Positions 24,909 to 56,794 of a stretch of 64,000 bases of DNA are shown here, piece by piece. Below the pieces are notes generated by a model, which saw only the letters and a program-made list of their open reading frames with translations, was not told the origin of the DNA and ran no database searches. Position 1 is the stretch's first letter. Every line of letters begins with the position of its first letter. The stretch covers positions 95,186-159,185 of the forward strand of contig RDEW01000028.1 in the NCBI GenBank assembly GCA_011109175.1, given 5' to 3'. A program made the position numbers and the translations under genes. The stretch comes from Dicyema japonicum (Eukaryota > Dicyemida > Rhombozoa > Dicyemidae).

Positions 24909-26148
24909 TCATATTTGGGGGACACATTGACGGAAAAGGGCAAAATTTAAATTTCTGAGGAACCTAATTGCGTTTAATGTTATCATCTTGATTTGTGGGG
25001 ACCAGTGGGTTAATGATGTCCTGTACAAAGAGGGTACAAATTCGCTAAAGGCTTCGATGCAGTTATTCTTTATTAGAGTGAGCATCCAATCTTCATGGAG
25101 ACTAAGCAGTGCGTGTTCAGATATCTGTCGTTAGTCACAGATGTACCTGCATTTGCTGATTTTCCAAGCAGGACCCCCAGAATTTAAAGAATTTAGCCAA
25201 GAGTTCCTTTGAGAAGCCAGAAGAGTCCAACTGGGAGAAGAGTCTGTGTATTTCTAGGACAAAGTATTTCTAACTAGCAAATAGACACCAACCCCACGAC
25301 GGGAGTCACGACGATGGAAGTACTTAATCAAATACTGAACCAACTCTGGAAACAATGTTTTCTCCTTTTTAACGAATACCAGGACACAGTCAGACAGTTC
25401 CTTGTAAAACAGGGGAATTGATCTGGTCTTGTGAAGTGGGAACAAGAGTGTAACGACTACGTCATTGTGATGAGGCTTCAATGGTTGAGGAAATCCTTCA
25501 GCGAAACTATTTATGAGTTTCTTAGTACTTTTTGTAAACATTGAGAACTTGGGCAATTCCGTGAAAGTGTTCTCCGTCGTAAATGAAGGTCGAGAGGATC
25601 TCCTCTATTTGCTTGATGACATGTGACCGAACCCACAAGAACTTGTAGTACATTTTATGTATGACCTTCTCAAGGTACTCCCTTTCTCGAGAGTCCTCAG
25701 AATTGAATAAACTCATAATCTGCATCAGCACACGTGCTTACTCTTTTAATATAATGCTTGTTTATAATTTTACGGTCCCCTTTTAGACTTTCTAAGTTCA
25801 ATATTTGGAGGAGGAATTGGTAGACCAACTAAGGTTAAGAATAAAATCAACTTCCAAATGGGGCCACGTACTCTCAGCATATTGTTCGGTGACCTCAACG
25901 TCTATACCGTTGTAGTACTCACTCACTGAGAATTCTCTGAAAATGTTTAAATTGATCATATTGAAGGAGGCTGTGAAGAATGCTTCACTGAAGGGATATT
26001 TTTCATTTGCCGCACAAAAATCGACGATTTCACACAAAAGCGATCTCTTAACTTCCTTCTCCCTCAAAAGACTCAGTTTATCTTCAAAATTGAAGATGAC
26101 ACAGCATGCCTGTATTTTATTAATACAAATGGATTCTTTATTATTCAT
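24909..26148 (-). CDS. PPP2R5: PP2A B56-type regulatory subunit, five ultrashort introns
   Basis: ATG at 26148, TGA at 24911-24909. GT...AG introns at 25829-25851 (23 nt), 25720-25741 (22), 25521-25539 (19), 25270-25292 (23) and 25125-25146 (22) leave 377 codons in one frame. The product follows the B56 HEAT-like repeat fold from start to end: IQACCVIFNF, ESTWPHLELVYQFLLQI, FNSEDSREREYLEKVIHKMY, EHFHGIAQVLN, LLFPLHKTRS, SLYRTSLTHWSPQIK. In the substrate-groove region His, Tyr and Arg of the family HRIYGKFLGLR appear kept, with Arg to Lys after the His. B56 proteins choose substrates for PP2A. At 376 residues it lacks the usual N- and C-terminal extensions. I saw no break other than introns. 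Confidence 0.92.
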
Positions 26149-26149
26149 A

Positions 26150-26930
26150 TTACCAATATCTAGTTACTATAAGCTTGGGAGATAACCCTTAAGGAGTTTT
26201 CCACATCCGTAATTGTATGGGACCTGAATCTCCCTTGATTGACGACTGATGAGTTTTCTCACATTCAAATATTGTCTATCGACGTTCATTACACGGTTAA
26301 TGCGCTTGTAACTTTAATATATGTGTGTTTGGTTTCCATAGAGATTAATTTGATTTATTGACGTTTACGTAATTTCATGGACTGCTTGCACCATTCAAAT
26401 ATTAGGGACTATTCAAAGGAGTGGGGAGTATTACCCACAAATGACCACATTGAGGCGTGCCATGACTCATGTGCGGATAATCTTCGGTTTACTAGTGCAA
26501 TAACACTATCGATTTTAAGCTACTTTTTTAGAATGTACTTATGAGGGTATCCACCATGTAAATCTCTGTGGATATAAATGATTTATTATTTTGGCTATTA
26601 GTTGAGCGGCAAATTTTAATAATTTTTTTTCAAACAAATTAGTCGTATAACCACAAATTGTTCAATAATTTTTTAATTTTTTAATAATTTTACAATAATC
26701 AAATATTAAATTAATAAATTATGTTGGGTCCACCAAAAGTATTGCAATATTCATACTATAACTACCATAATCCATCTCTATATCCGTGGACATTAAATTG
26801 ACTAAAGTTGGTGGTTAATTGGTCGGAAGGTTGAGGTGGTGACGCATTAAATTGGACAAAATATATACTTAACCTCATTATTAAGCCTTTGTCCACCATT
26901 TTGTGCGCATGAAATAGGTGACGGACACAG
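26150..26930. other. No gene recognised
   Basis: Upstream flank of PPP2R5, so it should hold its promoter, but no core element stands out. The stretch 26600-26720 is very AT-rich. Confidence 0.4.
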
Positions 26931-26936
26931 GAATCC

Positions 26937-27278
26937 TTGAGTTCGAGTCCTGCCAAAATTGAAATAACTTGGTGGATAATCTTAGAGACAAAGAGTGGAC
27001 TTGTAAAAAATAAAATTACGCACTCTCCTGGAGACGCAGTCGACAAGGCGGAGGCCAAGAAGATCCGTAAATACGAATCCCTCGGAAACCAATACCATTT
27101 CACCCCCATTGCTGTGGAGACAACTGGAACCGTGGGAGCTAAGACAAACGCCTTTCTCTCCAGCATTGGAAGCAAACTCGCCTTAAAAAGGTGTGAGCCA
27201 CGGATGGGACTCTGGTTGAGACAGAGGCTTGAAATGGCGATTATCAGAGGTAACACCTTCGCCATTCTGTTGTCATAA
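26937..27278 (+). mobile_element. LINE-E C-terminal domain
   Basis: The plus strand reads DKAEAKKIRKYESLGN, FTPIAVETTGTVGAK, FLSSIGSKLALK and LRQRLEMAIIRGNTFAIL-stop. This is the C-terminal domain found after the RT of LINEs that carry the QLGVG...GCEAAVH motif (family form: VPVAIETTG...QRISVAIQRGNAAAVLGT). The RT part is missing. Confidence 0.7.
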
Positions 27279-27439
27279 TTATTTATAATTTAAAAAAAAT
27301 AAAATTATTTTGTTAGTTTTATTAAAAATTATAATTTGGGCAATTTTTGACTAATTTTTTAATTAATTTTGACTTTTTTGCTTGATTGTTATTACATTAA
27401 ACATTCAATAAATTTTAAATAATAATATATCAAAGATCT

Positions 27440-28330
27440 TTCAACGTTGTCGGAAAATGTATAACTGGGGTGGAAGATAACACGTGACTTCATCAAGAAC
27501 ATAATGGAATGTCTACCGAATTGGAAATCCTGTGGGTGCGATGGTGTCCATTGTTTTTTGTCAAGAAATTTGGGCCCTTCATGATATTATGTGTGATGAG
27601 CTATTGAACTTTGTTAGTGGAGAATACTCATCGTACATGTGGATTTACACTGGAGTAACCTATCTAATTCCAAAAAATAACATGTGGATCACCAGATAAT
27701 TTGCACCCAATCACGTGCATGCCTATTTTATATAAATTGCTCACTAATGTGTTAATTCGTATATTACACTCAGTTCTATCAATTGTTACGACGTAGAGGG
27801 TGGAAATCCGAGTTACACTTTTATCATGACTGACACTGCAAAACAATAAGCCAGACATTTTATGACAAATTAAAAATAGGTTGTGATTATACAAGTAATA
27901 ACCTCACAAGAAACACTCAAGCATACAGAAGTGGAAAAGCCACACAAGTATGACTTGCTCGCTGGAGAATTGAGAATATTATACAATGCTCATGTGAGAA
28001 TTATTCGTGGTTTTGACATGGGATTATCTCCTCGTGCTACAGAAATCATTCGATTTATATGCCAATAATAGCTTGTATTCAATCGGTGGTGTTAAAGAAA
28101 ACATTATAAAGTATTATTGTCGAGCACGAACATGGAGTCAAATCCTTTACGCATCGAGGTTACTGGAAGAGCGGATAACTCATTACATTGGCGAAGCGGC
28201 GGACCCACAGTCCGAGGAGGAAGTGGTAGTCAGGTGGATGTCTGGTGAAGACCTCGTAAAAGAAGAAGGATGGTTTAGTCCAATCATAGTTAACATTATT
28301 TATTCATTTACGTTTTTGACATAAAATTAA
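27440..28330 (+). mobile_element. LINE-F (restriction-like endonuclease type) fragment
   Basis: 27490-27800, with frameshifts, reads KNIMECLPNWKSCGCDGVH, TYLIPKN, then LHPITCMPILYKLLTNVLIR: the finger and palm blocks of R2/NeSL-like RTs. After a deletion, 27883-28070 reads TSQETLKHTEVEKPHKYDLL and AGELRILYNAHVRII, the restriction-like endonuclease core, and the next frame continues VLTWDYLLV. The catalytic RT blocks are missing. Confidence 0.65.
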
Positions 28331-28439
28331 AGAAAATCTTCTAAAATGTATACTTTTTGGCAGAAATTTCCTAACATAGAAAAGCTTTGGTCAACTGTAA
28401 GGGTTGTTGAGTCAACCAAAACAGGGAGTTTATTTATTT

Positions 28440-29570
28440 ATTAACCCCTGGACCACCGAGAAAGAAAAAAAAGAAATGTCAACTAGTTAGGTGATCCCAG
28501 TTCCCGCAACCAAATGTGTCATCCAAAGCCTGTGCGTCTCCATTGTTCCCACTGCCGAACGAAAGTGCCTTCTTTGATCCTTGCAGATGAAGCCGATTGG
28601 AGACGGAAATTTCTTTGCCAATCGATTTTCTTTTGCGTGGAACAGTGAGAGGCTGAGTGGGTACCCATCTTCATCGCAAATGCGGAGAAATCCGAACCAC
28701 ATCTACGGGTTGTAGATTCCGTCAGCAATGGAGGTATTTTTGTTCCACATTGTGGTCCCAGCATACGTATTGTTTTCCTTTGCAGTAAGTTTAGTTTTTG
28801 GATAGTGGCCTCTGATAATGCGAATCTCCACGCAGCATAGGCATATTCCACATCCGGCGCTGACGATATATAATTCCGGTTGCTTCATTTATATTCACTG
28901 GGGTCTTCTGGATAAGACACCGTGTGACATCCATTTTCTGCAGTCCTTTGGTGAGGACTTGTTTGGCATGGTAGGTAAAATTAAGAGTCTGTCGTATGTC
29001 ACTCCCAGGATAGAAGGGTATCTTGTGACAGGTATCCGAGTATGTCAGATGAAAATTCTGGTCCTTCTTTGGACCGACTGTTGGAGGTGAATAGAGTGCA
29101 TGTTGATTTTGGAGCCGATACCGAGAGACGGTTAGCTATCAACCAATCATGGACACAATCTACTTTCTTCTGTGCGAGTGAGACTGCTTTTGATGTCGAA
29201 CTGCTTCTTGTTTCAATGATGATATCGTCAGCATAAGAAAGCAGTAAGAAGTCCTTGTCAATGTCTGCGGGCAGGTCGTGGAGGAAAAGGTTGAATAGAG
29301 TGGGGGGACAAAGGCGAACCTTGGGTCACTCCGTTTGGTAGTAAACGTGATCTGATGTGACCACAGATGACCCTCCCACGTCTTCCAGATAGAAAATTGG
29401 CGAACCATAGCTTCAAGTTGAATTTTTGAATCAAAGATTTTTCCAATTAAATGTTTCCTCGGTACCGAGTCAAACGCCTTGCTGATGTCAATCGAGACCA
29501 TTGTTGTTCGCATGTGTTTTGGGGCAGTGTTGAACTGCGAAAGCGTTAATAGGAAAGTCGTGGTTATTAT
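28440..29570 (-). mobile_element. LINE-C, 5'-truncated
   Basis: Minus strand: MVSIDISKAFDSVPRKHLIG (about 29500), FLSGRRGRVICGHIRSRLLP and GVTQGSPLSP (29400-29320), LLSYADDIII (about 29245), DVEYAYAAWRFALSEA (about 28850), ending LVAGTGIT-stop at 28487. Catalytic residues remain but the frame changes several times. Confidence 0.82.
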
Positions 29571-29574
29571 TATT

Positions 29575-29930
29575 ATTAACCTTAGGCTAACCATTGTGAG
29601 CCCAGCACAAACAGTCACAACTAACTAATCCAAGGAAGGAACCAAAGGAAGAACATCTGCTTGTGCCGACCAAATCCATCTTCCAATATTTCATTACAAG
29701 GTTCCGCTTCCGAAGAGAGGTGGGGAAGTAGGTCCGCCCTCTTCCATTTGGTCCCACGCCCAACCCGTCGCGGACATCACTTCATTCCTTAGCGGAATAG
29801 TTTTCATAATGCAATTTTCATCAGAGGATTTGGTCAGGAAGAAAGGTAGGAAAATCCCTTTTTAACTACTGTGTTGTGCCAGAAGGACTCGTCGCCTCAC
29901 GGGTGGAATCTGTTTGACAAGAATTGACCT
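29575..29930. other. No gene recognised; probable repeat body
   Basis: Begins with ATTATTATTAACCTTAGG, a LINE-like tail, then sequence that may be the body of the SINE whose head lies at 29.95-30.0 kb. Confidence 0.3.
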
Positions 29931-30012
29931 TCGCTGAAAATTCCATTATTCGAATTCGAACCCACGACCTTCAGATCCGATGTCATCAGACGTTACGTTC
30001 AGCCAGAAGGAA
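29930..30012 (-). repeat. tRNA-derived SINE head
   Basis: The minus strand holds an A-box-like TGGCTGAACG (30005-29996) and B box GGGTTCGAATTC (29962-29951). The anticodon arm region CGTCTGATGACATCGGATC resembles tRNA-Arg(TCG) but cannot fold properly. The downstream body ends near AGTAGTTAAAAAGGGA, similar to AGTCTAAAAAGGAC downstream of the head at 36.1 kb. Confidence 0.45.
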
Positions 30013-30201
30013 AGTCGTGGATGAGGGGTTTATGTATTATCTCAAAGAATAAATATTAAAAATTAATTTAAGAAAGTAATCGGTTATTGCCAGATTTAAT
30101 TTGTTTCGAATTTAATGGAAATTCTTAGAAATCTTTAGATGACTTGGGTAATACACAGAAAATTTTCTTCTCCAAAATCAAGTGCATGACCGATGTCCTG
30201 G

Positions 30202-30543
30202 TCAGTAGAAGGGAGTTAGAATTTTCTTGACATGGGTATTACAAGCCAGTAGCGACAAGAGATATGCAGGTAGAGAAATGTCTATAGCTTTGTGAATTCC
30301 AAGCCCTCTGAATCTGACAAACAGTGTAGCCTGCTTCCACGAGTTTTCCTCAAACCGTACATTGAAGATACGCTCCATTGTTGAAAGGAAAATCCCATCA
30401 ATGTCTGCGAAATGGTCATATGAGTGAAATAGAATGACATCATCAGAACATCCATACCACGTCTCCTTCTTATATATTGAAGCATGAACACCTATTCTGT
30501 TATTCATCTTACAATTGATGATAAGAATTAAATAAATAATCAT
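30202..30543 (-). mobile_element. LINE-E fragment (RT C-terminal side)
   Basis: A 113-codon frame from ATG 30543. WKQATLFVRFRGLGIHKAID with PAYLLSLLA matches the conserved post-RT block of LINE-E relatives (family: W.QA.LPVR.GGLGIR.A...ALPAFLAS). No other part of the element is adjacent. Confidence 0.65.
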
Positions 30544-30544
30544 A

Positions 30545-31204
30545 CTAATTCGTGGACTCGTCTGACAAATTATTGACTGTAGAAATCTAAAAAGGTGTAA
30601 AACCTAGAAATATTTAAGAATATCAGTAAATGTCTTAGAAATATCCCATTGACGTGGTAGTCCAACTGGGATGATCTTATATTTAAAAACGTCTAAATGG
30701 TCTTATAATTCATCAATATTGATGTCTTAAACTCAATGTTGGACTGTTAATATTTAAACATGCCGAATTTTGACATTTTTCTTATTTTGGCCATACTCAG
30801 ATCGTTCTTGTCCCTTAAATTTTTCATACTTCTTAAAAACTTCCGGGATGTTTTCTTGGTAATCATTACTTTATCATTATCTAAATTTTATTTTCATTTA
30901 TATTTGTGTTTCAGCATATAAAAGTTCACTGGTCTCGTAGTTGACTATATGGTTTGACGGAGATGGTCAATTACACTGAAATCTCTCACACATTCTGTAG
31001 AGACATCCTGTCTTCCTTCTTTGTTTCTTACCTTATTTTAGTGCTAATGCATAAATATATGAGATAGTCTTGATAAGAGCCATTTTGGCATTGCCATACT
31101 AAANTATATGGGATAGTCTTGATAAGAGTCATTTTGGCATTGCCATACTAAATTGATATGATCTTTGAATATCACTATGGATCGATTTCGATAGTATTTT
31201 AGAT
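30545..31204. other. No gene recognised; assembly junction
   Basis: AT-rich spacer. An 'n' near 31104 separates two almost identical ~50-bp stretches (TATGAGATAGTCTTGATAAG / TATGGGATAGTCTTGATAAG). Confidence 0.45.
31104..31104. other. Single-N assembly junctions (first of eight)
   Basis: Single 'n' characters occur near 31104, 32018, 37588, 39419, 50506, 58032, 59840 and 62316. Each is flanked by a near-identical duplicate of 50 to about 650 bp, with small differences between copies. This is what arises when overlapping contig ends or alleles are joined without merging. Confidence 0.75.
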
Positions 31205-31212
31205 GTCATCAC

Positions 31213-32721
31213 TAGGGCGATTTTTATTTTGACTTTATAAATACAAAATTTTGGCCTTTTTCGACTTTATGAAAAATTTATCTAGAAAAAAATTTTTTTA
31301 ATATGAAAAAAACTAATCTAAACTTTATTAAAATATAGAATAATGTAATTAAAAACTTTTTCGAGTTAAAAATTTCGGTCTTAAGATAATAATTTTATCA
31401 ATAATAAAAATTTTTTCTGAATAAAATCTTTTCTGATGCGAACGGATATTGTTCAAATAGTATATGCATGGAGAAATCTGTTGTTTTCAAATTTTAATAC
31501 AAAAAACTTATTGACAGAAAATCTAGATTCCAGATACTTCTTAATTCTGCATAAATAGTTACTGAAATATAATTTTTTAATATGCTCGTCTTCTACTGTG
31601 TAGTAAGTTTTCATTGTCATCTTTATCAATTTATAAACCAATATTGACATAAGGATAAATTGCTCCGTAGTTCATTTTAATTGATTACTTCCAAGTATCT
31701 TTATATTAAAATTCCATTTCTATCAAAATTATAGTTATTTTTTATTTTATGCAAGGAAAATCATATTCGACTAAGCATTAGTGACCTCATTGATCGTAGA
31801 GTCAGTGAATGGAATAAGAAATCAGTTATTTTTACAGTAACACATGTGAAATACTAATAAAATGATAAACTTGTTAGTTTGAAATGTTTATTAGACAAAA
31901 GACTCAATAAAAAGCTGTTGTTAGAAAAATCGTGAGTTGATAGAAAAGTCACCAGGATATTTTCTAATAACAGTCTTAATCTTTTCAACGACCTTCCTGA
32001 TTTGAATGCGGCATAACNGATAAATTGCTCCGTAGTTCATTTTAATTGATTACTTCCAAGTATCTTTATATTAAAATTCCATTTCTATCAAAATTATAGT
32101 TATTTTTTATCTTAAGCAAGGAAAATCATATTCGACTAAGCATTAGTGACCTCATTGATCGTAGAGTCAGTGAATGGAATGAGAAATCAGTTATTTTTAC
32201 AGTAGCACATGTGAAATACTAATAAAATGATAAACTTGTTAGTTTGAAATGTTTATTAGACAAAAAACTCAATAAAAAGCTGTTGATAGAAAATTCACCA
32301 GGATATTTTCTAATAACAGTCTTAATCTTTTCAACGACCTTCCTGATTTGAATGCGGCATAACAGTTGATGGCACATTAGTATTTTATCCAAAAACTTTA
32401 AAAATTAATTATTTTCTAATAACAGTCTTAATCTTTTCAACGACCTTCCTGATTTGAATGCGGCATAACAGTTGATGGCACATTAGTATTTTATTCAAAA
32501 ACTTTAAAAATTAATAAATAAAAAATCAATTAAAAATTTGACTTTATTGACCTAAAGATTAAATTTTGACATTTTTTGACATTACCCAAAATTTTTCCTT
32601 TTTTGATTTATATAATATTTTTGGTTAAAAATCACATTTTTATAACTTTTGGACAATTTTAAAGAACATATGAATTTTCTGTTATTATGAATTTTTGACT
32701 TTATTGACAATAATCGCCCTA
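31213..32721 (-). mobile_element. hAT-II element with perfect 8-bp target duplication
   Basis: Inverted ends TAGGGCGATT (31213) and AATCGCCCTA (to 32721), flanked by identical GTCATCAC at 31205-31212 and 32722-32729. The inner side of the right end (AATTTTTGACTTTATTGACA) recurs in the element starting at 47282. The minus strand inside reads VMPHSNQEGR, like the family dimerisation block LPHSNAxVER, but the frame is broken. An 'n' near 32018 and three copies of TTTTCTAATAACAGTCTTAA show internal duplication, part of it likely from assembly. Confidence 0.82.
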
Positions 32722-32889
32722 GTCATCACATATTCATGTAAGCTTTCTGTTCTCGACTATCAAAAACAATTTTTCAAAAATAAAATCTCCATTTCTTAAT
32801 TTTCCCAAAATATGCTATTTATTGTACTAAAATCACAGAGTTAAAGAAAAGTGACTCCAACTAAGTGATACCGGATCGCTCTAGTCAAG

Positions 32890-40260: not shown

Positions 40261-41248
40261 TTGTCGAACTACCACAAAACAGTGACCTGGGAGATTTCAC
40301 AGAATAAGATAGAAATAAAGGAATTCGTTGGGAAGGGGACCTATGGGACAGTATACAAGTGCGAATATTACGGAAAAGCAGCCTTGAAGAAGATCAACGT
40401 GATTGACCCATCGGTGGAAGACTTGAAATCCTTCCGGAATGAAATCTCCGTTTTGCAGTAAATTGTTAACAAAGTCAAGACAACTTCGTCATGAATACAT
40501 TTTGATATTCATTGGATGCATCGTTAATCCTTATTTGGCCATAGTCACTGAATGGTGTGATGGGTCCTCACTTTACAAGGAACTCCACGTCAAGCAAGTG
40601 GTCTTCAAACCATTAACAGTTTTATATATTGTTAGACAATTTGCTGAGGGGATGTCTTATTTGTATGAAAAGTCGATCATTCACTGTGATCTCAAGTCAG
40701 ACAGTCTATTGTTACACTTATTACAGACGTATTCCTCACTGACATGGGGGTCATCAAAATTGGAGACTTTGGTCTTGCCACATTGATTAAGACCAGAAGG
40801 AACCCCAAGCTTGTGGGATCCGTGTATTGGATGGTCTCTTATCACCTAAATTCAGGCACCTGAGATAATTCGTCAGCGTAAAAACTGCGAACCCTCACAT
40901 TCTTCCGACGTTTATGCGTTTGGGATTGTCATGTATGAGCTAACCATGGGATGTTTCCCCCATTCAGAGCCTGACCATCCTCATCAAGTTAGCATTCCGC
41001 TATATTCAAAGATTTTGTTCAAAGTTGGAAGCTCTAAGGAGCCTTTAAACTTGGATGGGATGAGATCAGATCTTCCACCTAGTTTGGGAGATCTCATACA
41101 TAAATGCTGTCAATATGATTATGAATTAAGGCTTACATTTGACGTGGTTCATTTATTTTTTGATTTAAAGGTACTCCAAGAAATTCTCAATATGATCAGT
41201 AATTCCCCCAGATTCAACCGTTCTTTATCAGATTCACATCTTTTATAA
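40261..41248 (+). CDS. RAF: RAF-family Ser/Thr kinase domain, 4-5 ultrashort introns, 5' end unresolved
   Basis: Introns at 40458-40479 (22 nt), 40704-40726 (23), 40834-40855 (22), 40988-41011 (24) and probably 41144-41170 (27, in frame) give one frame to TAA 41246-41248. Features: TWEISQNKIEI entry, glycine loop GKGTYGTVY, lysine in GKAALKK, LAIVTEWCDGSSLY hinge as in B-Raf, catalytic loop HCDLKSDN, DFGLAT, WMAPEII, SDVYAFGIVMYEL, and a C-terminal RSLSDS like the 14-3-3 site of Rafs. The HRD arginine is Cys and the activation loop is about four residues shorter than B-Raf. Upstream exons may lie in 39914-40250 (a 22-nt intron-like gap at 40104-40125 gives an open Ser/Asn-rich stretch), but no Ras-binding or C1 domain is recognisable. 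Confidence 0.88.
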
Positions 41249-41531: not shown

Positions 41532-41957
41532 TTATTTAGATAACAAATTCTTATAAGATTTCATTAGAGTGTGTCTTTCTTTACTTCGTTCTTTGCTTAG
41601 TTTGGTCTCCGTAATCCTTTTAAGGAAATCAATGTTCTTCCAGCTGTTTTCCCCCTTATAAAATGTATCCACTCTCTCAGAAAGCAAAATCTTGGCCTCC
41701 TTAAGATTCCTTACTGCTGATCTCGACATTTGACACTTAACTTTAAACCAAGTATATACCTTGACTGCGATCCTCGTCTCTTTATGGCGCATAAAACAAC
41801 ATGTATTCCTTTTGTTGACATTCTGACCGCCAGGACCAGAACTTCTTATATTTTTGAACTTAATGTCGCTGTCTTTAACAATTGGGAATTTGGTTACGGA
41901 TAAACACCTCTTTTTAAGCAAGACAAAATTATATGGCAACAAAGACGACCGAATCAT
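41532..41957 (-). CDS. MTRFR: Mitochondrial ribosome-rescue release factor (MTRFR/C12orf65 type)
   Basis: ATG 41957-41955, stop 41534-41532. The GGQ loop SSGPGGQNVNKRNT is followed by CQMSRSAVRNLKEAK and LSERVDTFYKGENS, which match the C12orf65/MTRFR family (KCHQTRSVDQNRKLA, VDVFYNGENS). A 24-nt GT...AG segment at 41736-41759 inserts eight residues between IAVK and CQMSRS where the family has none. It is very probably an intron, but it is in frame without a stop. Spliced product 133 residues with a basic N-terminus suited to mitochondrial import. The protein lacks codon-recognition domains, as expected for a factor releasing peptides from stalled mitoribosomes. Start codon lies 52 bp from that of THG1 on the other strand. 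Confidence 0.9.
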   Translation of the reverse strand: MIRSSLLPYNFVLLKKRCLSVTKFPIVKDSDIKFKNIRSSGPGGQNVNKRNTCCFMRHKETRIAVKVYTWFKVKCQMSRSAVRNLKEAKILLSERVDTFYKGENSWKNIDFLKRITETKLSKERSKERHTLMKSYKNLLSK

Positions 41958-42009: not shown

Positions 42010-42853
42010 ATGACTGGAACCCGTTTTCAATATGTGAGAAAATTTGAGGAGGACCGAGAATGCTTGTACAGCACATACATTGTTGCCAGACTCGATGGGA
42101 AATCATTTCACAGGTTCTTACTTGTATAACAACTAGATTTTGTGATACCCATGAGTTCAAAAAGCCTAATGACAGTCGCTGTCTCGGTTTAATGACACGT
42201 GCTTCTGCAGCTGTATTCCAACAATTTAAGGACATTGTGTTGGCATATGGACAATGTGATGAGTACAGCTTTTTATTTAAGAGAACGTCCGATATTTTCA
42301 AACGTCGTAAGATGTAATCTCGGTTAGTTAATTATAGGAAGATTCTGTCAATATTGGTCAGTTCGTTCACGTCTGCCTTTGATTTTTATTGGTCAGATTA
42401 CTTTGAATCAGTAAAATTGCAGCATCTCCCTGCTTTTGACTGCCGACTTATATGCTATCCCCATGTTCAGAACGTGAGAGACTATTTCTCGTGGAGACAG
42501 GCTGACTGTAATTAAGTGATCTCACTGTAGGTCATATCAATAACTTGTACAACACCGTGTTTTGGTCCTTGATTAACGACAGAGGGAAGACTCCGCAGGA
42601 AAGCGAAAAAATTCTCAGAGTATGCGTAATGATTATATCTTAGGGGACTCTTTCCTCAGATAAGAATGAAATATTGTTTAGAGATTACGGCATAAATTAT
42701 AATAATATTCCCCAATTGTTTAGAAAGGGGACTGTTCTTATCAGAAGTAACCAAACTATGGGTGATGCTGAGATTGTCACTGAAGATGTATATTCTCTCC
42801 ACTGTGATATCATTAAAGACGATTTCTGGATTAAACACGACATTCTTGATTAA
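42010..42853 (+). CDS. THG1: tRNA-His guanylyltransferase, four ultrashort introns
   Basis: ATG 42010, TAA 42851-42853. Introns 42114-42136 (23 nt), 42314-42337 (24), 42508-42530 (23) and 42620-42643 (24) leave 250 codons. Landmarks: FQYVRKFEEDRECLY, metal-binding Asp in VARLDGKSFHRF, KKPNDSRCLGLMTR, second acidic pair in [33 protein letters not shown] (the HINNLYN signature), LSSDKNEILFRDYGINYNN, RKGTVLIRS and LHCDIIKDDFW. The enzyme adds G-1 to the 5' end of tRNA-His, the identity element for histidyl-tRNA synthetase. 249 residues is close to yeast length. All visible catalytic residues are present, so it should be active. Confidence 0.95.
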
Positions 42854-42889: not shown

Positions 42890-43125
42890 GATTAACGATT
42901 GGATTCTTTTGCGGGAATGAGAGAAGGATCTTTCATTCGATAGGGACAATGGAGGACCACATATGTTGAAAGGCCCAGTTGATTGCGGGAACTGGGATGC
43001 CTAACTGTTTGACGTTATTATGAGAGAAGGATCTTTCATTCGATAGGGACAATGGAGGACCACATATGTTGAAAGGCCCAGTTGATTGCGGGAACTGGGA
43101 TGCCTAACTGTTTGACGTTATTTCA
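42890..43125 (+). mobile_element. LINE-C 3' end fragment, tandemly duplicated
   Basis: 42916-43019 and 43021-43121 are near-identical ~104-bp units. In translation GTMEDHIC then AQLIAGTGM parallels GTMGDQRRWMARLIAGTG at 46.8 kb, the C-terminus of the LINE-C family. Confidence 0.55.
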
Positions 43126-43430: not shown

Positions 43431-43672
43431 TTATTGTTTTAATTGTCCATATTTTCTTAGCATTTCTTGGTGGTTGATTCTTGATTCTTCGAGTTTCTTT
43501 TTCTTTACCTCCATAATGTCATTCCAATTCCTTTCAGCGTTAAGAGCTATCCCAATATAAGCGAGTATGCTAAGTCCAAATAATGAAGGTCTCCTAATTA
43601 TTACACAATTTACATTATAACTACTAGTTTCTTCCCTATTTTACGTGTAACATCAGGCCTTATATTCCTCAT
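43431..43672 (-). CDS. Small single-pass membrane protein, one 20-nt intron
   Basis: ATG 43672-43670; a GT...AG segment at 43594-43613 (20 nt) joins a basic start (MRNIRPDVTRKIGKKLVVIM) to SLFGLSILAYIGIALNAE and a lysine-rich helical tail (IMEVKKKKLEESRINHQEML), stop at 43433-43431. 73 residues: positive N-terminus, one membrane segment, long charged helix. This is the layout of small mitochondrial inner-membrane assembly proteins, but I cannot name a family. Phase across the intron is consistent. Confidence 0.5.
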
Positions 43673-47281: not shown

Positions 47282-49205
47282 TAGGGCGATTTTAATCAAT
47301 AAAGTCAAAAATTCATGTTTTTTTTAAATTGTTTAAAACTTATAAAAATGTAGTTTTTAATCAAAAAATTTAATTTTTTAGGTCAATAAAATCAAAAATT
47401 TTATTGATTTTTTTACTTTTTCGAGTTTTTAAATAAAATACTAGCGTGGTATCAATTATCATTATTCACTGTGATGCCGCGTTCAACCAAGAATGAAATT
47501 GAAAAGAATAAGTCTGTTGTTAGAAAATATGCCAATGAATTTTCTATCAATTCACAAGGAAATCTCTTTTGTAATTTATGTGGGACATTTGTAACTGCAA
47601 AAAAACAAATTTTTTTATTGAAAAGAATGAAATTGAAAAGAATAAGTCTGTTGTTAGAAAATATTTCAATGAATTTTCTATCAATTCACAAGGAAATCTC
47701 TTTTGTAATTTATGTGGGACATTTGTAACTGCAAAAAAACAAATTTTTTTATTGATTCACATCGATCGTCTAAGAAGCATATCAAATTAGCTGGTTTATT
47801 ATTTTTATTACTATTTTACAGGTGTCAATACCATAAAACTAACTGATTTTCTCATCCCATCTGCCGACATGGGTCGATAAAGTCACTAAAGCCTAAGTCG
47901 AATCCGATATTTCTTGCATAAGCTGAACAGTAAAAGCTTACGAGACTTGTTTGAGAATATTGGACATAATCTTTTTCCTGCTTACGCTTGCTGAAAAAGT
48001 GTAGAAAATTTATGACAGATGTAGCTTGACAGAATGGATCACCTGTAAAGTAACCCTCCTTTTCGATACAACCGTAAATTAGTCCCCTTCACGAAAAGTA
48101 TAAAAAGTTCCAAAATCATTTAATGGTTTTTCCGAACAACTCGAAAAAGTTATGGTGTTTTTTAAATTATAATTGGAATACCAACACCAAATAAGGCTTA
48201 ATATCCAAATATATGCTAAAATCCGAAAGACAACTATCGTTTCTAATTGATTGAGTTGTTTTGTAATTAGTACACATTGCATTTGTAGATTTCCAGACAT
48301 ACTTATCCACATGTTTCGTTGCCGTCACTTCTTTCATATGCAACAGGCAATATATACAGTGCATGATACTCTTAAACCTTTTCTTCTCAAATCCTCTATT
48401 GGACCTGCAATCAGGTGTCTTAACTCATTAACGAAAACGGACATGACTAAAATTTTTAAAGTAAAAATTATTATTCATTATTAAAACAAATTAAATTTAA
48501 TAAAATTTCATCACCTGTAAAGTCCCCGGGGAGCTACTTTACAGGTGATCCGACAAAATTAAGCTATTTCGGAGGTTTTATTTGCATTTATTATTGATCT
48601 GATAAACAAGTTTTTGTTTTGATTGACGAAACTGATATCCGGGGACACAAATATGTCACTTATTGGTAGATTTTCCGATCCCAAGAAAATATTTTTAATA
48701 TCTTGTCGCCCATTGTCTTGTGCGGTTAACTCGTCGATTGTCAGATAATTGACGATATGCTAAGGGATTTTGCGATTGATCGCGATAATTTAGTATTACT
48801 GGTATCTGATGCAGATACATGGTAGCTGCCGCACAGGTATTGAAGGTTTTATACACGAATTTGCATCATGTAACATGTGTTCTTCATCTTCATAACTGTT
48901 GCATTAAAATAAGAGGATATTTTAAGGATGTGGATTTTTTAATTTCATTAATATAAGCGACTGTCAAAAACAAGACACGAAGAGAAAAATTTTCTGAAAT
49001 TGGGTATCCACCTGAAGATATTTTAACAAGATGGGGGAGTTGGATGGATGCAGCCCGCTATTATTACAAAAATTACAGAGAAATAAAAAAATAATTGAAG
49101 GTTTCGATGGAGAGGGGATTTGAGTCGAAAAATGTTTGCAAGCGGTTTGTAAAAACGAACTACGTACAAATTTATTATCAAAATTATGCCAATATGACGA
49201 TATAT
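47282..49205 (+). mobile_element. hAT-II element with transposase, interrupted and truncated
   Basis: Begins with TAGGGCGATTTTAATCAATA, the terminal repeat of the element at 31.2-32.7 kb in the other orientation. ATG 47474 starts a hAT transposase: KNEIEKNKSVVRKYANEFSI, a BED-type finger (LFCNLCG...HRSSKKH), a region split by a Merlin insertion, then VLIDETDIRGHKYVTY (about 48620), LVSDADTW (about 48800), REKFSEIGYPPEDIL and TRWGSWMDAARYYYKNY (48970-49070). The finger exon is duplicated (about 47500-47740). Stops and frameshifts abound. The right end is cut by LINE-A at 49.2 kb and no right terminal repeat is seen. Confidence 0.8.
48036..48551 (-). mobile_element. Merlin-like DNA transposon inserted in hAT-II
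   Basis: Inverted ends GGATCACCTGTAAAGTA (from 48036) and TACTTTACAGGTGATCC (to 48551), with flanks GACAGAAT (48028-48035) and GACAAAAT (48552-48559): an 8-bp target duplication with one change. The minus strand inside reads WKSTNAMCTNYKTTQSIRND and SDFSIYLDIKPYLVLVFQL, like the start of the IS1595/ISXO2-type transposase domain (C..C, SIR.gSff, L.L..iL.l.Y.w) used by Merlin elements. The catalytic part is missing. Confidence 0.75.
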
Positions 49206-49231
49206 TATTATTAGCACTTTTGCCATAATAT

Positions 49232-51480
49232 TTATAGCCCCGCATGTGCAGCAAATAATATAAGAGAATTAGATAGGTTGCTCCAAGCTCTTCTGTTCTT
49301 TGCTAGGTCCCTCAGTGAGTCCAGATCGTCACCAGATGCCAATGTTTTTTTCACGGCTTTCAGATCGTTTTGTAGAACGACCGGGAGGGTAGTTCTCGGT
49401 CTTTCACGAAAGCGTTTTACATTGGAGGAGTAGTAATCTTCCATTGCGATATTCGGAAGGGGTATCGGGACCAATTTCAGGACGTGTCCAAAAAGTCTCC
49501 AACGAGAGCTAATGATGTCGTGACTAAATGGTGTACAGTCACACTTATTGTACAGTCCATTCCGCGAAATCTTGGATGGCCAGGACATTCCAGTTATGTT
49601 TCTTAGATGATTCCTGTGAAATGAGTCTAGCCTTTCCAATTCCTCTTTAGAGGTGGCCCAAATCCCAGAGTTGTATAGTAGGATTGGTTTGATGAAGGTG
49701 TCGTATAACATAATCCTTTGTTTTATGTTATATCCTTTCCGTTTTAGCCAAAGATTTTTTAGTCTGTGTAATGCCGCATTGCTAATGTTTTTCTCCGTAT
49801 GATGTCTTCGTTATCTCCTAGTAGAGAGCCAAGATTCTTTATGTGTCTCCATTTCTCTTCGAGTGAGTTATTCATTCGTCTTATTTCTGTCCGTTCTGTT
49901 TTTTCCGTGTTCACGGTGAGAAACCATTTCCAAAGTATACCTGGTGCTTTTTCTATTACATGTTCCAGGAGTTCTTTGTCTTCAGAAATTAGGTCGACAT
50001 CATCAGCATAAATCACTTCTATTTTTTCTTGGTATAATGGTCTCAGTTCCTTCATAGCGGCATCAAATATATTGTGAATAGTAGCGGAGAGAGGGAGTCT
50101 TTTTGAGGAGTGCCTGTGTTTGTTTCAAAGTTTCTTGAGTAGGTTTTTCCAACTCTCATAAAGAGCTCTGAGTTAGATAGAAAGATTTGAATCATTCTTA
50201 GACTCGATTCGTCAATAAACCCTTCAATTTGTTCCTGTTAACCGAGTCAAAGGCTTTTAATAGATCTATTCCCAGAATGTGGGTGGCATTGCAATATCTT
50301 TGATGTGTTGCACATCTCCATCTGTGACTCCAGACTGCATCAGCTGTTAATCTTTCTTCTCTGAACCCACTTTGACTTTTGGGTAGGTATTCATAGGCGG
50401 GTCCTTTTATTCTTTCCAATACAATGTTAGCTAAGACTTTCCGTAGAGAAGTGATAATATAATTGGTCGTAAGTTTTCAACCGGTCCTTTCGGTTTATTG
50501 GGTTTTNCCCACTTTGACTTTTGGGTAGGTATTCATAGGCGGGTCCTTTTATTCTTTCCAATACAATGTTAGCTTTGACTTTCCGTAGAGAAGTGATAAT
50601 ATAATAGGTCATAAGTTTTCAACCGGTCCTTTCGGTTTATTGGGTTTTTGTATAGGTATTAGTAATCCCGTTCCCAGGGGCAGAGTTGAGTTAGTTGAAA
50701 ACATTTCATTTAGTAGTGTAGCGATTTTTTCAAAAAGGGGGTCAGGCCCGTATTTATGTAGTTCTGGGTTTATCGTATCTGGTTCAGGGCTTCTGTTATT
50801 TTTTAGTTTTTGACATGCTGGAGTTAGTTGAAAACATTTCATTTAGTAGTGTAGCGATTTTTTCAAAAAGGGGGTCAGGCCCGTATTTATGTAGTTCTGG
50901 GTTTATCGTATCTGGTTCAGGGCTTCTGTTATTTTTTAGTTTTTGACATGCTGTTTTTACTTCCAAAATTGAAATTGGTTTTTTAAGGGTCTAGACTTTC
51001 CTTTGAATGGGGGGATTGCTGTAGTCACATTAAAAAGTTTCTCAAAATGTGTTGCAATTACCTCTGCTTGCTCTTCAGTATTCAGTAATGTCTTGCCATT
51101 TTTGTCTTTGATGATTATTCGTTCCTTCCGGTTTGTGTGGCGTAGTAAACGAGCGGCCATATCCCCTGAAGGACTTTTCTCTTGTTAAGGACTTTCTTTT
51201 TAATTAGTTTTTTTGTATGGATTTCTTTTAACTCCTTTACTAGTTCTGTATGTATCGTCCGACCCTTACTGGCCATCTCCCGCGTGCCGAGGTACTGGCT
51301 TGCTGCTTCGTTTATTATATACTTTGTGTGATCCCACGAAATTCCTACTGTTTGGTCCTTCAGATGAGAGCAGATGTATTTTTGGCAATTTTTGACTGTG
51401 TCTGGATGAGAGATCAGTTTTCCCGTTACTTCCATACTGACAGTTTTCGATTTCAGTTGCTTTATCGTCCAAATATTTGT
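49232..51480 (-). mobile_element. LINE-A, linker to 3' end, with internal duplications
   Basis: From 51435: linker (YICSHLKDQTVGISWDHTKY, KELKEIHTKKLIKKKVLN), RT (MERIKGPAYEYLPKSQSGF, REERLTADAVWSHRW, GIDLLKAFDSVNRNKL), intact VIYADDVDLISEDKELLE near 50020, and the C-terminal block 49711-49232 (PILLYNSGIWATSKEE, SSRWRLFGHVLKLVPIPLPN). 50395-50640 is duplicated around the 'n' at 50506, and 50690-50950 contains a ~133-bp tandem repeat. The endonuclease is missing. It cuts off the hAT-II element at its left. Confidence 0.85.
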
Positions 51481-51568
51481 GCCAAAGGATATTTGATCGT
51501 CTTCTTATCAGATGCGATATTTGATTGCGTTTTCTCCTTAATGCACATTTATTCGAATTTGAACTTCT

Positions 51569-51709
51569 TTTGACAAAGTTATTAAGTATTTTGACGAATT
51601 ATTAAATATTTTGACAAAGTTATTAAATATTTTAACAAAATTATTAAATTTTTTGACAAAGTTATTAAATTATTTGCACGTTTTAAAAAAAATAAATAGG
51701 AAAACCCTG
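51569..51709 (+). mobile_element. Right end of a second Tc1/mariner element
   Basis: Tandem TTGACAAAGTTATTAAATAT units followed by AAATAAATAGGAAAACCCTG and TA at 51710-51711. This matches the right end of the element at 18.25-18.9 kb. The left end is not present. Confidence 0.7.
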
Positions 51710-51803
51710 TATTAATAAAATACTATTTTTCAAATAAAAAAAATATTAATTTAAAATGAATAAAATTTTATTATCTGGATAGTTGAATATCTCGTGCTAG
51801 AAA

Positions 51804-53328
51804 ATGGCTAGACATTGGCTTAACACAAACATCCGAACACTATCATTGGAAAATGTAGTCTCGGGGAGACTAAGCGATATTGAAAAGGCAGGGACAATGA
51901 AAAATGAAAGAATCATTTCGTCAGTACAAGGACCCACTATTGTGGTCTCCTCGCGCCCAAAAGCCGTCACTAATTTTTGTGCCAATAATTATCTCGGCCT
52001 CTCTGTTTGCTGTTTTCGAATAGCTTAGGGACATCCCGAAGTTATCAACGCTGCGGTTTCCGCGTTGAAATCCCACGGGGCGGGACTTAGTTCTGTTCGG
52101 TTCATTTGCGGTACCCAGGTTAACATGATTATTTAAATTAGGACATTCACAAGAGTTTGGAAAATAAAATATCTCAATTCCATGGGAGAGAGGATGCTAT
52201 TCTCTATCCTTCTTGTTTTGATGCAAACGCTGGACTTTTTGAGTCACTTTTGGGCTCTGAGGATGCAATCATATCCGACGAACTCAATCATGCCTCGATT
52301 ATTGACGGAATTCGTCTCTGTAAGGCAAAAAGACTGAGATACTCCCACAGAAACATGAAAGGGACTTGTTAATAATGAAACGTAGATTTGACCGAAAAAC
52401 TGGACTCTGTCTCCGATTCGAGGATCAAATTGATCGTGACTGATGGTGTCTTCTCGATGGATGGGAATGTGGCTCCACTTAGGTTTTCTAACAATGATTA
52501 CTATCAGGGATATCATTGAGATTGCGAAGGAGAGGAACGCCTATACTTTCATCGACGAGTGCCACGCGACTGGGTTCTTTGGTAGGACTGGAAGGTGACT
52601 GTAACGATGATGTTATAGGGGAACTGAGGAACATTTAAATGTCGTTAATCAAATCGATATTATAAATTCAACTCTTGGAAAGGCAATGGGTGGGGCTGCT
52701 GGGGGATATACCACTGCTTCCTCCAATATAATTAAACTACTGAGGCAAGTCTCAAGACCTTATCTCTTTTCTAACAGTATTCCTCCACCTGTGGTTGCCT
52801 CAGCCTTAAAGGTACTGAATATAAGCTTCCTCCAATATAATTAAACTACTGAGGCAAGTCTCAAGACCTTATCTCTTTTCTAACAGTATTCCTCCACCTG
52901 TGGTTGCCTCAGCCTTAAAGGTACTGAATATAATGAGGGCAGGCATTTGAACTGATTATGAATAGTGATGAGTTTTTTAGCCAATTGCAGACCAATACAT
53001 ACTATTTCCGCGATGAAATGACATCCTACGGATTCAATTTACTCGTTAAGTTGCCTTAATTATTTCAGGGGGACAAAGAACACCCAATATGCCCGGTGAT
53101 GATGCCGGATGAGTTTACTGCCATCAAATTTGCGGATATGATGCTCAACGAGGACATTTACGTGATTGGATTCACATATCCTGTAGTTCCAATGGGTGAT
53201 TTTGGTGTTTTTATCAAGGAAACGCAAGAATAAGAGTGCAGATTAGTGCCGCCCATTCGAAGGATGATGTTGAGAGGGCTATCAAGGCCTTTATTAAAGT
53301 TGGGAGATCTTTAAAGGTCATAAACTAA
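51804..53328 (+). CDS. GCAT: Glycine C-acetyltransferase (2-amino-3-ketobutyrate CoA ligase), eight ultrashort introns
   Basis: ATG 51804, TAA 53326-53328. Introns: 52005-52028 (24 nt), 52119-52141 (23), 52368-52385 (18), 52483-52507 (25), 52595-52618 (24), 52921-52942 (22), 53045-53068 (24), 53196-53218 (23). Counting one copy of a 109-bp tandem duplication in exon 6, the exons total 411 codons. Conserved blocks: [121 protein letters not shown] (PLP lysine), [35 protein letters not shown]. The enzyme completes threonine breakdown to glycine and acetyl-CoA in mitochondria. The basic N-terminus fits import. Confidence 0.95.
52716..52933 (+). repeat. Exact 109-bp tandem duplication in GCAT exon 6
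   Basis: 52716-52824 is repeated as 52825-52933. The unit covers the end of exon 6 and 13 bases of the following intron. The first copy keeps its own GT at 52812, so splicing from 52812 to the AG at 52942 would still give the normal protein. It may also be an assembly artefact, as short duplications are frequent in this window. Confidence 0.85.
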
Positions 53329-53329
53329 T

Positions 53330-53695
53330 ATTACAACTTTTAACTAATTGGGAATTTAATTGGTCTCACTAAAATTAATTGTATTTAGTGGTAGCCTTCT
53401 TAGAGAGATTAGTACATACACTACCTCTATTGTGGGAAGCCCTCTAGAATGATGAAGTGAAGTAGAGGGAGCTGAGGATCCTTTTTGATGCCGTTCTTCC
53501 AATGGATTCCTCCTGAGAGATTTGAGTAACATTATTTGGACGAAGAAAAAAAGAGTCAGGGATCAGGAGGGAATTTTAAGCAAGTAGTGAGAGTGAGTGA
53601 AACCCATGACCATAGGTATGATATCCCGACAGCAAAAGTAACTTTATATTATTAATGGGTCCCTTATGAACATTATTTAAAGTTTAGTTATACGT
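53330..53695. other. No gene recognised
   Basis: 3' flank of GCAT. No supported feature. Confidence 0.4.
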
Positions 53696-53699
53696 ATTA

Positions 53700-54700
53700 T
53701 TATAAAAAATGGATGAATTATGTCTTGTGGTGGTTACATTCAGTTGAATAGAAGAGATGGCTGACTGATGTGGAGTGTAAATAAGGATAAGTTTGCGGCT
53801 AACTTTAGGAGGATAATGATTTCCAACGATTTGGGAGGATTGCTGAACCCATCAGCGATATATTGAGTTAGCGAGATGTGTTGAATATTGTGGACGAAAG
53901 CCATGTTGATGTGAAGAGAAGATTATTAGTTTTGATACAACACGTTCAACAATTTTCGATACTACAGATAGTAGTGAAATCGGTCTGAAAGATCCCGGAT
54001 TCGAAGGATCTTTCTTGGGCTTCAGGATTGGGATTATTTTGGATTTTTTATGATGCAGGAATTCGGTAGTTGTTGGTGGAGACAGAAATGATGTTTGTTA
54101 TTGCCTTAAGTCCTTGCATTCCGAGTTACCTTAAATGCAGAATCCATCAAGCCCTTTGGCAGGTCAGAGTGAAGGTCATATATAACTTTCCAGGATATGA
54201 AAATAGCGATGGAGAACATAGAGTGTATTGGAGTGTCCGGCTTTGGAAGTTGTCTGAGTGTGTGATTTTTGTCATTGAAGATAACTATTTGAGAAAGTAT
54301 CTGAATTTGGGAATATTGTTCCGTACAGTGACCTTGTGGTGGGATGTAAATATTTAAAAATGTGTACGTTGTGTTAATTATTTTGACCAGGACTGAAGTA
54401 TATTCAATGTAATTGTCACCATCAAACAGAGCGTGTTTCTGGGTGGAAATATCAGAGAAAGGAATAGATTTGTTTATGAGTACATTGTCATTGAATTCGG
54501 TCGATCACGGGTGATAATTAAATAATTTTTGAAGGAAGAATTGATTTTCTGGATACTTTATTTTTTTCTATGAGGGCAATATCGATTTTGTGGGTAGTGA
54601 GAAAGGCAACAAGTTCAGTGGATTTGTGTGCGAGGCTTGTGGTGCTCAGTGTTCTGTTTGATGTCTTAAATAATACTTGTGTTTTTCAAATGCATAAAAT
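53700..54700 (-). mobile_element. Jockey/CR1-like LINE, endonuclease to early RT, decayed
   Basis: From the right: endonuclease-like INTTYTFLNIYIPPQGHCTE (about 54380), then RT approach HHKKSKIIPILKPKKDPSNP (about 54040) and FRPISLLSVVSKIVERVVSK, ending HQHGFRPQYSTHLAN near 53850. Beyond that the frame is lost. Stops interrupt the endonuclease. Confidence 0.7.
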
Positions 54701-54769
54701 AATCCACAGATTTGAATAGTCCGGTGCTTGGAAGTAAAATGTATATTTAGTTTGCTAGGAACCATTTAT

Positions 54770-55110
54770 TTAATTTTGTATTTGGCTGGCGGCGCACCAC
54801 TTGACAATCTCTGACATAGAAAAGCTATAATTCCATTCCCGCCGTGTTTGTATGATCCGAGATACTAGTCTCTCCCACCATCTCCTATTCGATTCCAGAC
54901 TCCACAGACTGTTGAGGTATTCACCGTCTCTTAGTTCTATGTTTACTGATCTCAAATTTCCATTAAGGACTTCAGGAATGAATTAGACACTTTGGAATTT
55001 TGGAGATTTCAATTGGGCTCCTATTATCCTCACAAGTTCCTCGAACGGAGTTGGTATTAGCGGGGAGGAGAACCTGTCTAGGATCCTCGTGACTGTTTCT
55101 CGGAAGATAT
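54770..55110 (-). mobile_element. LINE-C type C-terminal fragment
   Basis: Minus strand reads FRETVTRILDRFSSPLIPTP, FEELVRI, then LRDGEYLNSLWSLESNRRWW and ERLVSRIIQTRREWN, ending before 54770. The first part parallels SRGP...PTPFEE in the copy at 20.35 kb. Confidence 0.55.
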
Positions 55111-55114
55111 TGAT

Positions 55115-55355
55115 TTTATTTAGGTTCTTATAGATATTGAAAATAAAATAATCAATAAAATAATTTTACTATAAATTTTATAAAATTAAAATTAAATAAA
55201 TTAAAGTAAAACGTAATTTGTAGTAAAAATAAAAATTTGAAATAAACTAATGTCCATAGCATACAAGAGGGATTTGGTGCCTTGTTTTATTAAAATACTA
55301 GACAAAGATAATAAGCAACTTCGATTACATTTGTCGGGGCGAGGGTAGGGAGTTA
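55115..55355. other. Upstream flank of the Rap-GAP gene
   Basis: Very AT-rich to 55245. An ATG at 55250 opens a 33-codon frame (KRDLVPCFIKILDKDNKQLR) that could be a first exon, but no GT...AG pair joins it in phase to the next exon. Confidence 0.35.
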
Positions 55356-56794
55356 ATGTACACGAATAAAGTTTAGTTGGTGATATTTTCAGCCGCCTTC
55401 TGAAATGGTAAAATTGAGTGAGGGATGTGGCTTTTCCCTAGAAAAACTGAATGATAATATATTCGTTGAAGTGAGGAACAAGGGGGCCTATCTCTTCGAG
55501 TTTGAAAAGGATCGACACTTTTTATCGAACTACTACAGATTATATGTGAGCAAACAAGTAGTGGTCGCTGACATTTCAGCCTCATCACAACTTTATATCC
55601 TTCTGCAGTAATCTGGGAATTGTGGTCGTGTCTGTTATTTCCAGCAGAAGCATATCAGATGTCATCCTCAGGTATCCACTTGTATGACATGATAGGACAA
55701 CAAACTGTTGTTATGTGGTGAGAACTCATTCTAACAAGGATGTGAAGACTATTGTTCTCGGTGTCTTACAGGTATCTCCAATGCTAAGCGGCAGACACTC
55801 ACTCGTGGCAAAAAGGAATGGAGGAAACTCGTTAAAATATGTGATAAGGCGATACCACGTGCCCTCATGGACTTGGATAGGGCTCTTCTGCCCAAAAGAC
55901 ACAGAATTGGGGTTTTGTACCAAAAGTATGGACAGGTATATTCTCTTCTACCACCTTTGAGGTAACCGAGGGTGAAATGCTGGCGAACGAATTAACTGAC
56001 AACTTTAGCGAATTTTTATCTATTCTACGATCCCCCAATTCTTATGAAACTAAGAGTGAGACCCTCTTGCTGAAGAACAAAAAATTAGCTGGGAGTTTTG
56101 AAACTTTTTCGACAAAGGATAACATAGTGAGTGTGAAGAATGAGGGATCCCCCACTGAAAACGGTGATAATCTTACGATTAAAAGCTTCTTTGAGGAGTT
56201 TGAGTTAATATTCTATGTATCCCCAATGATGTCTTCTTTGAGTGATAAAGTCTGCCTTTGCTAACTTTAGAATATTATTAGGAAGAGATTTGTTGGGAAC
56301 TGTCCCGTGGTGCTGGTCTTCCAGGAAGAGGGATGTGTATTCGGTGTGGATATGTTCCCCTCGAAGGTCGTTCAGGTGTTCATTGTCGTACAGCGGGATG
56401 GGACGGGAGTATACTCAGTTATGTGTTTTCTGTATTTGAGACCACCTGCTTGTATCGGGAGTCAGTGCCCAAGTTCGGTCCCAGTTCTTCAATTTGGGGT
56501 CACAATCTTCATTTCCGACAATTTTTGATGACGAAGGTCCTAAATGCTTCATTTGCTGCTCATAAATCGCCAGAGATGCTGTCACTTCAGATTAGAGCAA
56601 GGGGATCCTCTTTGGCTAATTTGTGGAGGTTGTCAGGATTATCCTTTAAAATCTCATGTTTTGAAACTGATCGATTGAATTTAACCCCAACTATATTGGT
56701 CACATTTGTTTATTACTTAGATATCGCCAGAGTTGGTTGTCCCCAACACGCAGTTCTGTTATCCTCCCTTCTTCGTGTATGTCCCTATTATTGA
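55356..56794 (+). CDS. RAP1GAP: Rap GTPase-activating protein (RAP1GAP-like), seven ultrashort introns
   Basis: Introns 55371-55392 (22 nt), 55558-55579 (22), 55672-55695 (24), 55772-55788 (17), 55936-55961 (26), 56250-56270 (21) and 56418-56440 (23) leave 428 codons. The product follows the Rap-GAP fold: NYYRLYVSKQPHHNFISFCS, RALLPKRHRIGVLYQKYGQV, TEGEMLANELTDNFSEFLSI, FFEEFELIFYVSP, IIRKRFVGNCPVVLVFQEEG, SKVVQVFIVVQRD, VPKFGPSSS, FLMTKVLNASFAAHK. The asparagine of the family KRHIGND helix, the catalytic 'Asn thumb', is kept, while the preceding His is Phe. The loop around residues 215-290, richly divergent, replaces the usual FKGFRGGLD block. Start and 3' end are uncertain; open sequence continues to about 57130 and further exons are possible. 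It switches off Rap GTPases. Confidence 0.88.

Follow-up and report, generated by a model that had tools for sequence, protein, structure and literature searches.

Tiny introns are already known from dicyemids and have been published since 2007; Dicyema itself is a parasite of octopuses. The present analysis concerns the introns of a 64-kb stretch of a genome that is almost certainly that of Dicyema (bases 95186-159185 of contig C113, GC content about 37%), referred to as the window, together with further genes taken from the same genome assembly (64,672,829 bases, 191 contigs).

In the published reports, the introns of D. acuticephalum were 26.2 +/- 1.9 nucleotides (nt) long in a set of 16 (PMC2222250), while a set of 41 had a mean of 24.93 nt, a standard deviation (SD) of 2.51, a median of 25 and the weakest known 5' consensus (PMC2483917). 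The median intron was 27 nt in Dicyema sp. and 57 nt in Intoshia (PMC6543705), and the mean in D. japonicum gene models was 38.2 nt (PMC6736024), with 4.9 introns per gene in Dicyema sp. (PMC6543705) and 6.2 in D. japonicum (PMC6736024). The introns of Paramecium have medians of 24 and 25 nt, GT-AG ends and are best spliced at 23-26 nt, and those of Stentor go down to 15 nt (PMC12862383). For human test introns, the minimal productive length from donor to branch was about 46 nt (PMC11291888).

The introns described here share with those of D. acuticephalum the GT-AG ends, the narrow range of lengths, the weak 5' consensus and the occurrence of up to several introns per gene, but they were shorter, with a mean of 23.40 nt (n = 92) compared to 24.93 nt (n = 41; Welch p 0.0007). 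These 92 introns, all from conserved genes, were also shorter than the Dicyema sp. median and the mean of the D. japonicum models. The reading that we favor, at a probability of about 0.88, is that they are ordinary U2-type GT-AG introns of a dicyemid, reduced to about 23 nt with little variation in length and recognized whole, by their spacing. The new details are the shorter median and a putative branch signal that has a place in the intron.

Introns placed by homology

An earlier note, made from the letters of the window alone, had proposed that seven genes contain about 30 introns, each 17-27 nt long. Because chance pairs of GT and AG about 23 nt apart are frequent, introns were judged by homology. 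A purpose-written spliced protein-to-DNA aligner, which levied a fixed charge per intron whatever its length or boundaries, was given animal or human homologues of PPP2R5, THG1, RAF and GCAT as templates. With neither a length nor a dinucleotide rule, the segments excised from the four genes were mostly 22-25 nt, the exceptions being a 131-nt segment in GCAT and two gaps, 9 and 13 nt long, that were spurious; one 24-nt intron of GCAT came out as 27 nt with one of the four templates. When 256 boundary pairs were forced on THG1, RAF and PPP2R5 jointly, GT-AG gave the top score (1728), followed by a runner-up at 1549 and a median of 1353. The best local scores without splicing were 170 for PPP2R5, 186 for THG1, 218 for RAF and 334 for GCAT. 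With splicing, the corresponding scores were 568, 643, 517 and 1261, while reversed-DNA decoys scored 31-53. In MTRFR, removal of a 24-nt segment that the earlier note had called an intron raised the score of the RF-1 Pfam domain from 57.1 to 65.3 bits (+8.2).

In all, 26 introns were placed in the window, one of them with an ambiguous length, and there were two weaker ones and one candidate, which is near the number first proposed. The segments thus appear, from the homologue alignments that fix their positions, to be genuine introns of the dicyemid type, and the earlier observation is to that extent confirmed. The spliced exons match the PPP2R5, THG1 and animal GCAT families (Table 1). The predicted totals of 411 codons for GCAT and 250 for THG1 agreed with the alignments, whereas PPP2R5 has 376 codons and not 377; the 428 codons proposed for Rap-GAP, a gene with uncertain ends, are provisional. 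Similarly, the statement that most introns are 22-24 nt long was borne out, whereas the low end of the range, 17-18 nt, found no support. A 17-nt candidate in PPP2R5 (25037-25021, from a gene finder) was rejected as conserved coding sequence, reading VPSLYR where human B56 has FPSLYR. The third intron of GCAT is ambiguous: it is 18 nt if it is GT-AG, while the alignments to homologues favor taking out 24 nt from a GG donor, which restores the conserved spacing.

The length distribution was determined from 92 homology-placed introns: 25 of unambiguous length from the window, 35 from Prp8, 26 from B56 paralogues and 6 from SLU7. The sample was drawn from conserved genes and is thus not random. 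Excluded from it were the ambiguous intron of GCAT, the two weaker ones of Rap-GAP, those of TAF11 and of the small membrane protein, a 614-nt end artefact at L003, a 20-nt call in Prp8 and the B56 gene at L006, which is the same as that at L004. The lengths ranged from 20 to 28 nt, with a mean of 23.40, an SD of 1.50 and a median of 23, and 71 of the 92 were 22-24 nt long. By length, there were 3 introns of 20 nt, 2 of 21, 22 of 22, 21 of 23, 28 of 24, 8 of 25, 5 of 26, 2 of 27 and 1 of 28 nt. The 131-nt removal in GCAT was entered as 22 nt, since it reads 131 nt because of a 109-bp duplication and 22 nt when the duplication is counted once; the duplication is probably an assembly artefact.

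The Prp8 gene (L028), with 81% identity to the Prp8 of Lingula at a query coverage of 100%, contributed introns of 20-26 nt; the excluded 20-nt call, which would have been a 36th, was rejected as a probable one-base deletion in the assembly. The B56 introns came from four further loci. Lengths are quoted from homology only, with the exception of TAF11, because de novo gene prediction proved unusable when the prior on intron length was flat, calling over 100 "introns" within the stretch of Prp8. Random 10-kb stretches scanned with a flat length prior gave no usable signal, so that longer introns may exist elsewhere. The introns of Prp8 were 88% AT and those of other genes 60-73%. Matches to B56 (PPP2R5) were found on six contigs (C113, C111, C87, C101, C138 and C110), so that this phosphatase subunit seems to have expanded.

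Splice signals and the spliceosome

The U1 consensus is CAG/GTAAGT. The donors were weak, GT followed mostly by A or T, with 0.26-0.51 bits of information per position from +3 to +6; G was present at +5 in 13 of 82 introns, and matches to the U1 consensus averaged 2.80 of 7 compared to 1.95 in shuffles. The acceptor was mostly T/C-AG. In introns of the Paramecium type, selection for stop codons results in a deficit of stop-free introns with a length that is a multiple of three. The corresponding counts here, made on few introns, were 8 stop-free of 29 with such lengths and 22 of 54 others.

A branch signal was sought in 88 introns, the 92 minus four near-copies among the B56 paralogues, with expected counts taken from shuffles that preserved the overall composition of each intron. 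An A was present at position -7 from the 3' splice site in 47 of the 88 (28.2 expected), and the rest of the interval from -4 to -14 showed no enrichment. By length, the A at -7 occurred in 15 of 21 introns of 22 nt, 10 of 21 of 23 nt, 16 of 26 of 24 nt and only 3 of 8 of 25 nt. The motif T-N-A with its A at -7 was found in 33 of the 88, compared to 13.8 in shuffles. When the A was allowed anywhere from -7 to -9, the motif was present in 60 of the 88, compared to 36.5. TAAC anywhere in the intron was seen 9 times in 83 introns (4.3 expected, z 2.4). The replication set consisted of 53 gene-finder introns (59 minus 6 of SLU7) from other genes, namely SF1, Prp18, a beta-spectrin-like gene, a kinase, a Cys-loop receptor, one unidentified gene and a retroelement-like model with two introns; four of these had Pfam matches. 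There, T-N-A with the A at -7 to -9 occurred in 34 of 53 introns (17.2 expected) and at -7 alone in 14 (6.3 expected, p 0.0045), while the control zones of the same set were insignificant (-10 to -12, 22 compared to 17.2, p 0.10; -4 to -6, 13 compared to 17.4). The -7 site was singled out first; the -7 to -9 zone was partly picked from single-base counts that included the replication set. On known genes, the gene finder recovered 74 of 83 introns with 8 false calls, and its acceptor scores omit -8 to -5.

The implied distance from the donor to the branch A is about 13-17 nt. The earlier note had held that such introns leave almost no room for a branch point and a polypyrimidine tract. Their shortness does exclude a long polypyrimidine tract, but a branch site fits, and a weak T-N-A is present. 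No branch-site signal of dicyemids was found in print, in full-text searches of a collection with few subscription papers.

Each intron would then be recognized as a whole ("intron definition") through fixed spacing, with U1 and U6 at the donor, U2 bound to a branch A that lies about 13-17 nt further on and the AG about 7 nt beyond that A. A fixed spacing of donor, branch A and AG would therefore supply the information that is missing from the weak sequence signals.

The spliceosome that the genome encodes is largely canonical. The PROCN domain of Prp8 was matched with 559 bits and SLU7 matched the human protein with 335 bits; Prp18 and SF1 were matched as well. It might be supposed that loss of Slu7 or Prp18 goes with a short distance from branch to AG, but both genes are present. 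Among the small nuclear RNAs (snRNAs), 22 of 25 matches to U2 were above the cut-off, as were 9 of 10 matches to U6; GUAGUA is intact in U2, and the best U1 locus has an intact ACUUACCUG end; we take ACUUACCUG in U1 and GUAGUA in U2 to be the pairing sequences. Two minor-class snRNAs were also found, U12 (L049 1629-1501, minus strand) at 85.4 with a cut-off of 53, and U6atac (L050) at 37 with a cut-off of 33. Weak matches to these appeared in 3 and 8 of 14 prokaryote controls, respectively, none above the cut-off. The presence of both suggests that the minor spliceosome is probably retained in a genome with introns of about 23 nt. U12-type introns have the donor RTATCCTT and the branch site CCTTAAC. 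None of 98 introns had the donor RTATCCTT; two began with GTATCC and one contained CCTTAAT.

By the genes found, the core of the human spliceosome is the same as that of Dicyema, although the distance from donor to branch is about 46 nt in the human test introns (PMC11291888) and 13-17 nt here. We consider it somewhat better than an even chance that the introns are not free of signals, that a branch A is kept 7-9 nt before the end of the intron, that a canonical animal spliceosome with retained minor-class snRNAs acts over a donor-to-branch distance of about one third of the human minimum and that spacing counts for more than sequence in the choice of sites.

Several observations weigh against the favored reading. 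Irimia and Roy (2008) reported no branch-point signature in 41 introns of D. acuticephalum (PMC2483917). The enrichment of A as a single base at -7 was weak in the replication set (21 compared to 14.4, p 0.03) and in Prp8 alone (20 of 35, z 1.9). The gene finder that supplied the replication set had a prior that most favored intron lengths of 20-28 nt, its genes were only partly checked by homology, and two of the introns came from a retroelement-like model. None of the 11 U1 loci was above the Rfam cut-off, the best scoring 69.0 compared to 69.5. U2AF was represented only by U2AF-like pieces; the best of its 47 matches, which share one contig, scored 82.6 and 79.4 bits, compared to a full-length cut-off of 310.3, and the same search matched 2 of the 14 prokaryote controls, below the cut-off.

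The strongest competitor, unlikely but to be taken seriously, is that the introns are real but recognized solely from their length and their GT/AG ends, without a preference for a branch site, and that the T-N-A excess reflects base composition at the 3' end. The published absence of a branch signature and the weakest known 5' consensus in D. acuticephalum (PMC2483917) would fit it, as would the lack of enrichment of general motifs, YTNAY being found anywhere in the intron in 45 of 83 introns with 46.2 expected. However, the excess of T-N-A is specific to position and was replicated, and the shuffles hold the composition of each intron constant. It is very improbable that the sequence derives from another lineage whose introns are very short, either an orthonectid or a ciliate like Paramecium, whose medians of 24-25 nt (PMC12862383) are close, since those best matches of GCAT and Prp8 that carry a name come from animals, the gene models use the standard code and U12 and U6atac are present, whereas ciliates are reported to lack the U11/U12 small nuclear ribonucleoprotein (PMC12862383). 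The introns of the orthonectid Intoshia have a median of 57 nt (PMC6543705), and its Prp8, 78% identical, is no closer than that of Lingula at 81%. The view that the segments arose as indels, through pseudogene decay or by faulty assembly has almost nothing left to recommend it, for although the assembly has flush duplications and the probable one-base deletion in Prp8, and assembly error still covers the 131-nt GCAT case, 92 segments of near-equal length with GT-AG ends are required for conserved proteins, GT-AG ranked first of 256 pairs and the decoys failed.

Genes of the window and the assembly

The genes and introns of the window are collected in Table 1. TAF11 is an eighth gene and lies outside the range covered by the earlier note.

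Table 1. Genes, introns and a tandem duplication in the window
Feature	Position	Strand	Introns (nt)	Basis and remarks
TAF11	13823-13382	-	13737-13716 (22), 13627-13607 (21)	PF04719 100 bits; spliced gene-finder model
PPP2R5 (B56)	24909..26148	-	25851-25829 (23), 25741-25720 (22), 25528-25507 (22), 25292-25270 (23), 25146-25125 (22)	376 codons including stop; human B56-gamma 200 bits, PF01603 306 bits; spliced alignment
RAF-like kinase domain	40308..41248, start approximate	+	40458-40479 (22), 40704-40726 (23), 40834-40855 (22), 40988-41011 (24), 41147-41170 (24)	B-Raf 231 bits, Pkinase 181 bits; spliced alignment
MTRFR-like gene, RF-1 domain	41532..41957	-	41759-41736 (24)	Intron without in-frame stop
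THG1	42010..42853	+	42114-42136 (23), 42314-42337 (24), 42508-42530 (23), 42620-42643 (24)	250 codons including stop; human THG1 277 bits, PF04446 and PF14413; spliced alignment
Small predicted membrane protein	43431..43672	-	43613-43594 (20), candidate	Frame continuous only with removal, judged by eye
GCAT	51804..53328	+	52005-52028 (24), 52119-52141 (23), 52368-52385 (18) or 52362-52385 (24, GG-AG), 52483-52507 (25), 52595-52618 (24), 52921-52942 (22), 53045-53068 (24), 53196-53218 (23)	411 codons including stop; spliced alignment, 4 templates
Tandem duplication within GCAT	52716-52824 / 52825-52933	+		Exact, flush, 109 bp
Rap-GAP	55405..56801, ends uncertain	+	Firm: 55936-55961 (26), 56250-56270 (21), 56418-56440 (23); weaker: 55558-55579 (22), 55672-55695 (24)	Rap_GAP 68.6 bits; firm introns with 4/4 templates, weaker with 2/4 each

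GCAT was mostly 61-66% identical to animal GCATs among the best 120 of 7,997. Rap-GAP is a divergent gene, 23-29% identical to its homologues, of which 4 of the 13 returned were tried as templates; the remaining removed segments, 17-321 nt long, varied by template, and the lengths from unconstrained alignment were scattered. For the small membrane protein, the candidate intron is plausible, and the spliced product of 73 amino acids had no Pfam match. The RAF-like kinase has HCD in place of the HRD of B-Raf, at about 40675-40700. Elsewhere in the genome, a gene-finder model on L047 (919-2430, reverse complement) matches PF02931 with 110 bits and PF02932 with 100 bits, as a neurotransmitter-gated (Cys-loop) ion channel does; the animal group that carries it is described as being without a nervous system.

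The window contains many exact tandem duplications, several of them flush or parted by a single n (52716-52933, 42917-43122, 50688-50953, 62099-62533 and others), that look like unmerged contig overlaps. There are eight single n's, six of which stand immediately after one copy of a nearby repeat and may be remnants of scaffolding. Overlapping duplications with offsets of 365, 346, 452 and 106 bp surround the n at 32018 (31654-32494). The published D. japonicum assembly has 67.5 Mb in 377 scaffolds, 4.1% gaps and a GC content of 36.7%, and was made with SSPACE, GapCloser and HaploMerger (PMC6736024); the present genome resembles it in size, GC content and style of assembly and most likely belongs to this species.

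Implications of near-minimal introns

As a general caution, gene finders with a larger minimum intron size would overlook introns such as these. An animal that combines near-minimal introns with a canonical spliceosome offers a test of the least that an intron requires. Should the branch A prove to lie 7-9 nt from the end of the intron, Dicyema would provide a natural case of major-class splicing well under the spacing of donor and branch at which splicing breaks down in humans.

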